Assembly: GCF_024494685.1 (NCBI RefSeq) | Contig: NZ_JANHDM010000010.1 | Location: forward strand, 62,001 to 126,000 | Length of the DNA stretch: 64,000 nucleotides | Reading direction: 5' to 3' | Source: Halorubrum rubrum | Lineage (GTDB): Archaea; Halobacteriota; Halobacteria; Halobacteriales; Haloferacaceae | Part shown: positions 48,404 through 53,816 of the stretch, one piece after another | Layout: each line of letters starts with the position of its first letter | Numbering within the stretch: the stretch's first letter is position 1 | The notes under the pieces: generated by a model | What the model saw: the letters and a program-made list of their open reading frames with translations, nothing else | Told to the model about the DNA's origin: nothing | Databases searched by the model: none | Program-made: the position numbers and the translations under genes

Positions 48404-49468
48404 TTACGCGAGGTCCTCGAACTCGAGTCCGAGCTCGTCGAGCACGTTCGCGATCATCTCGTAGTCCTCCAGGGAACCCTCCTGGACGCCGGTGAACCAG
48501 AGCGGCTCGCCGTCGTAGTCCTCGCCGTGGCTGAGGTCGTCCTCGGAGACGTTCAGGATCGCCTCCTCGATCTCGCCTTTGACGGAGTTCTCCCAGTTGG
48601 ATCGCGTCACGAGCGGAGCGCGCGGGATGGGGTCGGAGACGGCGAGCAGCTGGAGTTCGGTTCCGGACTCCTCGATCTGGTCGCCGGCCCCCTCGTACTC
48701 CGACGAGATGTCGACGAAGTCCTGAGACATCTCCTCGAACTGTTCCTGCGGGACGTACGGCGCGGAGGAGAACGCGCCGGTCGTCGCCGCCATCACGTCG
48801 TCCCGCTGGACCATCTGCTCGCGGGCGGTCGTGTGGTCGGAGTACTCCGCGTCGAAGTCCTCCGCGTCGCCGTCCGGCGCGCTCCCGATGTCGAGGCCCG
48901 CGTCCTGGAGGACCGTGAGCGGGACGAGCGTCCCCGACACCGAGAGGATGTCGCCCATGTAGATCAGTTCGCCCTCGATGTCGGTCAGCGACTCGATGCC
49001 GCTGTCGGGCGTCGTCGTGACCGTCGAGAAGTACTGGGCCGCACCGTAGGCGATCCGGAGGCCGACGATGTCCAGGATGTCCTCGCCCGCGATGACCGCC
49101 GACGGCGAGATGTCGGCGATCTCGCCCTGGTCGTTGCGCATCGCCTGGAGGGTCGCGGTGTAGCTCTCCGCGCGGTCCGGTTCGATCTCGACGTCGACCT
49201 CGGACTCGAGGTACTCGAACATCGGCTGGTACTGCCGTTCGATCTCGACGTCCGCCTCCGCCGGGTTCAGGATGAACTGCGCCGTGGGCGTGGAGTCGGT
49301 GTCGCCCGCCGTTCCCCCCTCGGAACCGTCGTCGCCGGAGCCGTCGTCGCCGGAGCCGTCGTCGCCGGAGCCGCCGCCGCCGGTACACCCGGCGAGGCCG
49401 ACGACGCCGGTCGCCCCTGCCGTTTTGACAAACGTCCGCCGATTCGCCGACCACCTGTTGTCGGACAT
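48404..49468 (-). CDS. phnD: Phosphonate-type ABC transporter substrate-binding lipoprotein
   Basis: A 354-residue protein from ATG 49468 (an ATG at 49480 adds four residues). The signal has RRTFVKTAG (Tat) and lipobox VGLAGC. A linker of GSGDD repeats follows, visible in the DNA as a triplicated 15-bp unit near 49328-49372. The PhnD-like domain runs from about 55: FILNPAEADVEIERQYQPM, SPSAVIAGEDILDIVG and SALWTDG-type pocket replaced by GELIYMGDILSVSGTLVPL. Ligand could be phosphonate or phosphate-like; not decidable here. Confidence 0.92.
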   Translation of the reverse strand: MSDNRWSANRRTFVKTAGATGVVGLAGCTGGGGSGDDGSGDDGSGDDGSEGGTAGDTDSTPTAQFILNPAEADVEIERQYQPMFEYLESEVDVEIEPDRAESYTATLQAMRNDQGEIADISPSAVIAGEDILDIVGLRIAYGAAQYFSTVTTTPDSGIESLTDIEGELIYMGDILSVSGTLVPLTVLQDAGLDIGSAPDGDAEDFDAEYSDHTTAREQMVQRDDVMAATTGAFSSAPYVPQEQFEEMSQDFVDISSEYEGAGDQIEESGTELQLLAVSDPIPRAPLVTRSNWENSVKGEIEEAILNVSEDDLSHGEDYDGEPLWFTGVQEGSLEDYEMIANVLDELGLEFEDLA

Positions 49469-49515
49469 ACACCTACGCATCCGGACGACGGGACTAATCG
49501 TTTTCTATGTTCACT

Positions 49516-52208: not shown

Positions 52209-53816
52209 ATGGGATCCGACGCGTCGGATGGCGAGGGGGTCGACGGTGGGGCGGCCGCCCGCGAGGAGATCGGCCGCGAGACGGCCGTCCGCCGGGCGCT
52301 CGGCGGGGGCGTCGTCGGCGCGGCGTGGGTCGCCGGGCTGTTCGCGGCCGCGCCGCTCGTCGGCGGGTTCGGGGTCGAACCCGTCGCGGAGGCGATCATC
52401 GCGATCTCGCCCGGCTGGCTCTCGACGCTCGCGATCGATCTCCTCGGGTTCTACGCGACGCCGACGCTCGTGGCCGCCGTGGTCGTCGGCGTCGTCGTCG
52501 CGGCCGCGGCCTGCGGGGTTCTCGTTCCATCCGCGATCGAGCGGACGGGAAGCCACTCGATCGGGGAGACGCTCCGGTCGCGGACGGGCACCGCGGTCGC
52601 GGCGGTCGTCGTCGCCGCGACCCTCCCGCTGTTTCTCGCCGTCGGCGCGGGGCCCTCCCTCGCGCTCGTCGTCGGCGTGGCCGTCGCCGTCGCGCCGCCC
52701 GCGCTCGTCGCCCGCCGGCTTCCGGGCACCGACCGGCTGCGGGGTCGCCGAGGGTTCCTCCGGCGCGTCGGCGGCCTCGCGGTCGCGGGGAGCCTCCCGC
52801 TCGCCGGGCTCCGGTTCCTGTTCGGTCGCCTCGGGGGTCCGGAGGAGAGCGAGCGGGTCGGCGAGCCGCTCGAGCGGTCGGTCTCGCCGCCGAGCGGGGA
52901 CCCCGACTTCGACTTCGGCGGGATGCCGCCCGCGGTCACCCCGCCGGCGGACCACTACGTCGTCGACGTCAACGTGAACCCGCCGGTGGTCGACCCCGAG
53001 GCGTGGAGCCTGGACGTCGACGGCGCGGTCGCGGAGCCGTACTCGCTCGCGTACGACGACCTGGTGGGCCACGAGGAGCGTCTCGAGCAGACGACGACGA
53101 TGGTGTGTATCTCCAACGAGGTCGGCGGCGACCTGATCGGCACGGCCCACTGGACCGGAGTCCAGCTGTCCGACCTCGTCGCGGCCGCGGGACCGGCGGA
53201 GGGCGCGGTCGACGTGGTCACGCACGCCACCGACGGCTACAGCGAGGCGATCCCGATGGAGATCGTCGAGCGCGACGACGTCCTGATCGTCTACGGGATG
53301 GGCGATCGGACCCTGGAGACCGAACACGGGTTCCCGGCCAGACTGCTCGTCCCCGGCCGGTACGGCATGAAGATGACGAAGTGGATCGAGCGGATCGAGG
53401 TCTCCGGCGTCGACCACGAGGCGTACTGGGAGGAGCGCGGCTGGGACGAGGAGGCGGTCGCCAACACGATGTCGTACGTGCGGGCCGGCGTCCGCGAGGG
53501 CGACCGGGTCGTCGTCGGCGGGGTCGCCTTCGGCGGGCTGGAGACCGGCCTCGAGGAGCTGGCGGGCGTCGAGGTCAGCGTCGACGGCGGGGAGACGTGG
53601 AACGAGGGGGAGCTGGAGCCGCAGGTCGCCCCGCACGCGTGGCGGCGCTGGCGGTACGCGTTCGACGCGCCCGACCGGACCGCGTTCGACGTCGTCGTCC
53701 GCGCGGTCCGACGCGACGGGACGGTCCAGACCGAGGAGCGGACGGGACCGCGGCCGGGCGGGTCGACCGGGTGGCACCGGGAGACCCTCGAGGTCGCGCC
53801 GAACTCAGGGGGGTAA
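52209..53816 (+). CDS. Membrane-anchored sulfite oxidase-like molybdopterin protein
   Basis: A 535-residue fusion. The start ATG 52209 is preferred because GGTGAT at 52196-52201 is a good ribosome-binding site with 7-base spacing; GTG 52197 and ATG 52200 are alternatives. Four hydrophobic segments (about 32-51, 84-104, 127-146, 149-165) precede RGRRGFLRRVGGLAVAG (178-194), an internal Tat-like motif. Residues 240-430 are the Moco domain: TTMVCISNEVGGDLIGTA, with the Mo-ligating C300, then HWTGVQLSDL and LLVPGRYGMKMTKWIE. A dimerisation domain ends it. The likely substrate is an exported sulfite- or methionine-sulfoxide-like compound. Confidence 0.88.
   Translation: MGSDASDGEGVDGGAAAREEIGRETAVRRALGGGVVGAAWVAGLFAAAPLVGGFGVEPVAEAIIAISPGWLSTLAIDLLGFYATPTLVAAVVVGVVVAAAACGVLVPSAIERTGSHSIGETLRSRTGTAVAAVVVAATLPLFLAVGAGPSLALVVGVAVAVAPPALVARRLPGTDRLRGRRGFLRRVGGLAVAGSLPLAGLRFLFGRLGGPEESERVGEPLERSVSPPSGDPDFDFGGMPPAVTPPADHYVVDVNVNPPVVDPEAWSLDVDGAVAEPYSLAYDDLVGHEERLEQTTTMVCISNEVGGDLIGTAHWTGVQLSDLVAAAGPAEGAVDVVTHATDGYSEAIPMEIVERDDVLIVYGMGDRTLETEHGFPARLLVPGRYGMKMTKWIERIEVSGVDHEAYWEERGWDEEAVANTMSYVRAGVREGDRVVVGGVAFGGLETGLEELAGVEVSVDGGETWNEGELEPQVAPHAWRRWRYAFDAPDRTAFDVVVRAVRRDGTVQTEERTGPRPGGSTGWHRETLEVAPNSGG

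Follow-up and report, generated by a model that had tools for sequence, protein, structure and literature searches.

The closest described counterpart of the protein studied here is Sco3746, a Moco protein with five transmembrane domains (TMDs) and a twin arginine (RR) before TMD5 (Tooke et al. 2017, PMC5449189). According to the available part of that paper, export of Sco3746 depends on Tat, while its insertion into the membrane does not; its five TMDs were established by cysteine accessibility, and both the low hydrophobicity of TMD5 and the positive charge on its C-terminal side matter. The same source describes RR-to-KK changes, tat mutants and MBP, AmiA and Bla fusions beside the cysteine accessibility tests, names homologues in actinobacteria, firmicutes, chloroflexi and euryarchaeota, including Haloprofundus marisrubri, and reports conserved histidines in TMD2, 3 and 4 together with a prediction of two heme b (PMC5449189). 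The Sec/Tat mechanism is restated for Rieske proteins in the available part of a review (PMC7317946). An earlier note on a stretch of Halorubrum rubrum DNA, the 64,000 nucleotides that we analysed and refer to as the window, had proposed that one of the encoded polypeptides inserts its first helices by Sec and then exports its cofactor domain by Tat; in view of the Sco3746 precedent, this idea is a known biological principle. Here we describe how this polypeptide (the window protein) and its relatives compare with the known systems.

The gene, its domains and the predicted topology

The gene, which encodes a putative membrane-anchored molybdopterin oxidoreductase of 535 residues and 55.7 kDa, lies at positions 52209..53816 of the forward strand, as do all features of the protein given below. 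It starts with ATG 52209 and ends with TAA 53814-53816; two further in-frame starts, ATG 52200 and GTG 52197, are found a few bases upstream of it. The molybdopterin-binding domain (PF00174, E=2e-40) covers residues 258-407 (52980..53429) and is followed by a Mo-co dimerisation domain (PF03404, E=5e-05) at residues 432-511 (53502..53741), the latter match being barely above the curated cut-off (23.8 vs 22.7 bits). Residues 1-220, scanned alone, yielded no Pfam match at E<=1. Among the matches listed, the nearest named relatives came from Halorubrum and Halobellus.

For comparison we used two alignments. A1 comprises 58 full-length proteins, the window protein and 57 relatives from haloarchaea, Actinomycetota and Chloroflexota; it omits relatives that are split, partial or uncertain in their start (L019, L021, L022, L054, L107), near-copies (among them L007, L034-L038, L040 and L099) and two full-length proteins, L039 and L055. 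A2 has 31 rows and covers the membrane part only. Kyte-Doolittle hydropathy (19-residue windows, at least 1.6) marked residues 30-56, 63-81 (marginal), 74-111 and 125-171. AlphaFold2, run on A1, returned a model with a mean pLDDT of 90.1 and a pTM of 0.84, which specifies helices but not the sidedness of the membrane and places them at residues 13-51, 56-66 (short), 69-113, 116-124 (short), 126-144, 151-176 and 180-208; the membrane part modelled alone on A2 (pLDDT 83.9) had almost identical helices. Accordingly named, TM1 comprises residues 31-51 (52299..52361), at a hydropathy peak within helix 13-51 and behind an N-terminus that carries four K/R in residues 1-30 and is predicted to lie inside. 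Between TM1 and TM2 a short helix (56-66) leads into a conserved SPGW segment (together residues 56-73, 52374..52427), the proline of which, P68, is present in 31/31 rows of A2; G37, P68 and R181 are the invariant columns of this alignment. We read the marginal hydropathy stretch 63-81 as the PGW...LG segment linking TM1 and TM2, and not as an additional upstream span. Hydropathy and AlphaFold2 further support TM2 at residues 81-103 (52449..52517), TM3 at 126-144 (52584..52640) and TM4 at 151-168 (52659..52712). Hydropathy, AlphaFold2 and Pfam agree with the earlier note's anatomy of reading frame 52209-53816, that is, four hydrophobic segments, RRGFLRR, a fifth hydrophobic stretch and then the Moco domain.

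The window protein has four K+R in its N-terminus, none in loop 1, three in loop 2, none in loop 3 and eight in loop 4 with RR, which is a clean N-in pattern. Across A1, K/R occur in the predicted inner loops in2 and in4 in 56/58 and 58/58 rows, and in the outer loop out3 in 7/58. Loop out1, which is free of K/R in the window protein, contains them in 50/58 rows, so that the positive-inside distribution is not clean at this loop across A1. Four predicted helices ahead of RR 180-181 and helix 180-208 amount to an even number of TMDs before an internal RR, the arrangement expected of dual Sec/Tat proteins.

The twin-arginine motif and the fifth helix

The internal motif RRGFLRR occupies residues 180-186 (52746..52766). 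R181 is found in all 58 rows of A1 and R180 in 56, the remaining two (L024, L033) having KR, and the RRxFL consensus extends to F183 (42/58) and L184 (50/58). Loop columns 172-179 vary, their commonest residue being present in just 10-20 of the 58 rows. The alignment thus indicates strong constraint on the twin arginine next to a variable preceding loop. Relatives outside A1 have NRRRFLRR (L039), DRRAFLRR (L022) and DRRRLL (L054). A divergent relative on a Streptomyces mirabilis plasmid (L055:2470-3930), which forms a long branch within the clade of the window protein, carries ARRAPALALAGG in place of RRxFL and then RARR; an RR still precedes the hydrophobic stretch, which makes this protein a natural experiment on the parts of the Tat motif that are indispensable.

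TM5, the putative Tat-dependent helix, comprises residues 187-202 (52767..52814) within AlphaFold2 helix 180-208; it is uncharged apart from R202, with which it ends, and is followed by R207. On the Hessa scale, for which we used position-independent values and not the published delta-G predictor, its best 19-residue sum is 4.9, whereas the best four segments upstream of it reach -1.6, 0.7, 2.4 and 3.2. The window protein thereby shows the combination described for dual Sec/Tat proteins, a weak last TMD, here the weakest of five, with basic residues on its C-terminal side (R202, R207). Across A1, the mean hydrophobicity of the best four upstream segments exceeds that of TM5 in 55/58 rows, and TM5 is the least hydrophobic of all segments in just 20/58, the window protein among these. 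R202 is present in 37/58 rows and R207 in 32/58, and the loop after TM5 holds K/R in 56/58. Such residues are what the Sec-release model requires, yet they run contrary to a simple positive-inside rule. Basic residues after TM5 are not universal, since the stretch counted there has no K/R in five haloarchaeal rows (L026, L028, L029, L032, L045).

The same enzyme domain also occurs behind an N-terminal Tat-like signal, MKFLNRRHFLRISIAGIAP, and without upstream helices in three genomes (L043/L187, L190, L191); such a signal begins MKFLNRRHFLR.... L192 likewise has an RR segment near its N-terminus; in L193 and L194, which are more distant, this segment reads RRNFLK / RRDFIK and is followed by a hydrophobic stretch and Cys. 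From L043/L187, L190 and L191 it follows that TM5 occupies the place of these relatives' Tat signal, with the four-helix module ahead of it. This bears on the possibility that the window protein is inserted by Sec only, with a cytoplasmic enzyme domain and an RR that is nothing more than a topology charge. An RR could indeed also serve as a positive-inside signal, and with a TM5 that does not span the membrane, the C-terminal domain would stay inside after four spans. However, RR-x-F-L is conserved beyond the needs of a charge rule, R181 being invariant in 58/58 rows behind variable loop columns, relatives carry a comparable segment as an N-terminal Tat signal, and the domain is predicted to lie outside if TM5 spans the membrane behind a basic loop; we therefore regard a Sec-only protein as very unlikely.

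Somewhat less improbable, though still unlikely, is that TM5 is cleaved after Tat export, which would free the catalytic domain and leave the four helices as a separate piece. According to PMC7317946, the c-region of Tat signal peptides contains an AxA cleavage site, and the window protein and its close relatives have AVA inside TM5 (residues 191-193). This AVA is not conserved across the A1 family, though, and an AxA starting 18-32 residues past RR, the expected cleavage zone, is present in just 10/58 rows. A lipobox after RR is absent as well, since no row of A1 has a Cys within 40 residues of it. In addition, the final helix of the dual-targeted proteins described so far is said, in the available parts of PMC7317946 and PMC5449189, to integrate into the membrane.

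Taken together, the conserved RR, the basic residues after TM5 and the N-terminal Tat signals of relatives make insertion by Sec followed by export by Tat the best reading. From the observed sequence anatomy, conservation, predicted structure and relatives we infer, with a probability of roughly 85%, that the window protein is a membrane-anchored molybdopterin oxidoreductase made of one polypeptide, with its catalytic domain outside, TM1-TM4 inserted via Sec, and TM5 and the folded, presumably Moco-loaded domain handed over to Tat and left uncleaved. In such a sequence of events, TM1-TM4 would be inserted co-translationally via SRP/Sec with the N-terminus inside. TM5, because it would be too weakly hydrophobic and too basic past its end, would not be translocated by Sec but released on the cytoplasmic side, where the Moco domain would fold and acquire its cofactor. 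Tat would then recognise RRGFLRR and export the folded domain, leaving TM5 as a fifth membrane helix, and the enzyme would oxidise or reduce some extracellular substrate and exchange electrons with some partner. The Sec-then-Tat assembly suggested in the earlier note is supported by the topology, the conserved RRxFL, the weak TM5 with its basic residues, the N-terminal Tat signals of relatives and the Sco3746 precedent, although the membrane domain of the latter could not be related to that of the window protein; it would also suit a cofactor domain that has to fold prior to export.

The genome encodes three TatC domains (L183-L185, G000:C11:3900-7135), and the MoaA family model PF06463 matches in it once. 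Two of the TatC domains lie within one 932-aa open frame, and the single one adjoins it, an arrangement like that of haloarchaeal TatCt and TatCo. Elsewhere in the window, the protein encoded at 48404-49480 on the reverse strand has NRRTFVK and LAGC near its N-terminus and is likely a Tat lipoprotein; its gene adjoins genes resembling an ABC transporter, and it is presumably a solute-binding protein of the phosphonate type.

Distribution and the membrane module

A relative at >=50% identity was found in 18 of the 169 other genomes of the family. Among these, the match in G093 reaches a contig end, that in G161 covers only residues 230-530, with a frame that continues upstream with helices and DRRAFLRR, and that in G144 is split over two frames. 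The latter, in Halorubrum sp. CBA1125 (L019/L040), is an orthologue on a short contig, either a pseudogene or a sequencing error. Many further genomes of the family have a relative that is 30-40% identical along most of its length; the count of 165/170 family genomes refers to any relative of the domain, not to proteins of the window protein's type (window type) alone. With the A2 profile (E<=0.001), 21/196 genomes of the phylum matched, all of them in the same order (33 genomes of this order being listed) and two marginally (G081, G458). The window type is common in a sample of 119 actinobacterial genomes, the source of 27 rows of A1, where the count of 83 covers all relatives and not this type alone, and it also occurs in Chloroflexota (L041, L189). 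A DUF4147/MOFRL protein, a member of the Endo_dU family, a metallo-beta-lactamase and a SpoIIM-like protein are encoded nearby. These neighbours adjoin the gene in 12/24 loci (L005-L011, L034-L038), which represent seven distinct places as five contigs are counted twice, the SpoIIM-like gene being seen just in the five loci with longer flanks. They were found beside it in none of the other 12 (L012-L018, L020, L039-L042), eight of which have a flank of only ~1.5 kb. No cytochrome, copper protein or redox partner was found among the four neighbouring genes scanned.

A group of proteins with histidines in the membrane part (L135-L164) fits the description of Sco3746; we assign Sco3746 to this type by the description in the available part of the paper, not by its sequence. 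These loci come from an actinobacterial genus (61 genomes) that we take for Streptomyces. Since the window type, too, was found in two genomes of the putative Streptomyces genus (L091 in G277, L114 in G193), both types coexist in it. The nine residue positions of Sco3746 printed in the available text had no full match among 176 loci (best 5/9), and a shorter motif from it had none in the same loci, among which the S. coelicolor protein is evidently absent.

This His-bearing type provides the measure for the idea that the window protein belongs to the Sco3746 heme-Moco family in a strict sense and holds two b hemes in its membrane part that exchange electrons with Moco. As in Sco3746, four predicted helices are followed by RR, a fifth helix and a Moco domain, and a euryarchaeal homologue of Sco3746 is named in the available part of PMC5449189. 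The window family, however, has no conserved His in its membrane part, 25/58 rows of A1 are without any His before RR, and the sole one of the window protein, His116, lies between TM2 and TM3; a heme-binding membrane domain was rejected on the grounds that A1 lacks conserved His. In hhalign comparisons of membrane domains, the window type reached a probability of 4.0% against the Sco3746-like type, with only the RR stretch aligned, and of 4.6% against the type of L003, a His-bearing protein of the same genome, vs 59.5% between the two His-bearing types; as the profiles are small, this negative is weak, and a distant kinship is possible. No PF03404 match (E<=0.01) was obtained for the Sco3746-like L126, and the types fall into separate starred clades of the quick Moco tree. 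We thus consider membership in the heme-Moco family barely credible. When L126 was used as a query in haloarchaea, it aligned, among the matches listed, only from its residue 214 on, i.e. with the RR/TM5 and Moco part.

Separate acquisition of the membrane modules is suggested by the missing profile similarity but not proven by the tree. The Moco-domain tree, built from 109 rows by a quick method, has starred sets for the window type (95), which includes L043, for the Sco3746-like type (100) and for the L003 type (99). Constraint tests, run without L022, L043 and L055 and with 15 rows labelled 'oth' relabelled by hand, rejected neither a union of all three membrane types (p-AU 0.247) nor one of window and L003 types (p-AU 0.39). 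The Moco tree hence does not establish an independent origin, a single origin of the three types being unrejected (p-AU 0.247). The relatives with N-terminal signals are compatible with either direction, a gain of the module in one line or its loss in the other. Foldseek searches of the module against the PDB returned no match at E<=0.001 and four at E<=10, and VIA-align placed one of 9 chains at Z 3.2; no known fold was a good match in either search, which does not imply a novel fold. We regard it as an even bet that the window protein represents a dual Sec/Tat molybdoenzyme lineage separate from Sco3746, in which a heme-less four-helix module was put before a Tat-signal-bearing enzyme of the sulfite oxidase type in an event separate from the heme-bearing fusions, and which has since passed between haloarchaea, Actinomycetota and Chloroflexota. 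Beyond anchoring, the module may serve for example in quinone or partner docking. If so, haloarchaea would accomplish the hand-over from Sec to Tat using their own machinery.

The catalytic site and comparison with known systems

A fold comparison of the catalytic part with SorA, chicken sulfite oxidase and SoxC gave Z about 29; together with PF00174 and PF03404 this places it in the sulfite oxidase fold. Scores for the NCBIfam equivalog models were far under their cut-offs (SorA 104.5/600, SoxC 94.8/420, SorT 80.5/570 bits), and the protein is therefore not established as SorA, SoxC or SorT. Cys300 (53106..53108), the putative molybdenum ligand, is present in 58/58 rows of A1 and aligns with Cys185 of chicken sulfite oxidase, the molybdenum ligand of that enzyme. 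Trp315 and Arg378 are equally invariant (58/58 each) and His373 is found in 56/58 rows; conservation of these four residues makes Moco binding likely. The residues of the chicken enzyme that hold sulfite, Arg138, Arg190, Tyr322 and Arg450, are unmatched in the aligned columns of the window family. Arg138 aligns with column 252, which is V, I or T in 58/58, an Arg standing one column earlier in 29 rows, though not in the window protein; Arg190 falls into a loop that is shorter here, with some Arg in columns 303-309 in 9/58; Tyr322 aligns with Trp412 (W in 55/58, Y in 3/58); and Arg450 aligns with column 517, where Arg occurs in 0/58, the window protein having Arg515 two residues off. Sulfite oxidase is thus the name of a fold and not of a substrate: the earlier label 'sulfite-oxidase-like' stands for PF00174, PF03404 and the fold match at Z about 29, but not for the sulfite-binding residues of a true sulfite oxidase, which are absent. 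From this residue pattern we expect that the substrate is not sulfite or that sulfite is bound differently.

With the window protein, the hand-over from Sec to Tat would extend to a second, heme-less type of Moco membrane protein and gain a haloarchaeal example that could be tested in an archaeon accessible to genetics. Separate acquisition of the three Moco membrane modules would mean that the same solution was reached more than once. The window protein also raises the question of what role a conserved, heme-less four-helix domain plays beside a molybdenum enzyme. Titles and abstract openings of the open-access papers listed mention no heme-less dual-targeted Moco family, and the lineage may be contained in the supplementary candidate lists of PMC5449189.

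SorA (2blf), SorT (4pw3) and chicken sulfite oxidase (1sox) have the same catalytic and dimerisation fold as the window protein (Z about 27-30), and the positions of Moco Cys, His and Arg are common to them and the window family; unlike the window protein, they are soluble. As proposed for the window protein, the actinobacterial Rieske protein Sco2149 uses Sec for its first helices and Tat for its last helix and cofactor domain, but it has an Fe-S Rieske domain and three (in some cases five) helices and belongs to the cytochrome bc1 complex. MsrP/MsrQ (YedY/YedZ) likewise combines a Tat-exported Moco subunit with a membrane partner, as stated in the available part of PMC5449189. This system differs in consisting of two polypeptides and in having a partner with heme b. 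To our knowledge, MsrP has no dimerisation domain. Within the same genome, a 391-aa protein (L003:832-2007, G000:C11) has four His-bearing hydrophobic segments, RR before a fifth and PF00174, and is a candidate for a second dual Sec/Tat protein, judging from these sequence features. It differs from the window protein in its membrane His, in having no PF03404 match (E<=0.01) and in belonging to a separate clade; 19 similar proteins were recognised among haloarchaeal and actinobacterial loci. Proteins combining Sec and Tat, which the earlier note had called rare, are an uncommon kind, but they are documented and, with this second candidate in the same genome, less rare than claimed. Compared with Sco3746 as described in the available text, the window family differs in lacking conserved His, in having PF03404 and in a membrane domain without profile similarity to the His-bearing type. 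Both proteins share five TMDs with the N-terminus inside, RR directly before TMD5, a weak TMD5 with basic residues and a C-terminal molybdopterin domain. The Sec-to-Tat principle is already known, and it is the membrane part, heme-less and accompanied by an extra dimerisation domain, that sets the window protein apart from Sco3746.
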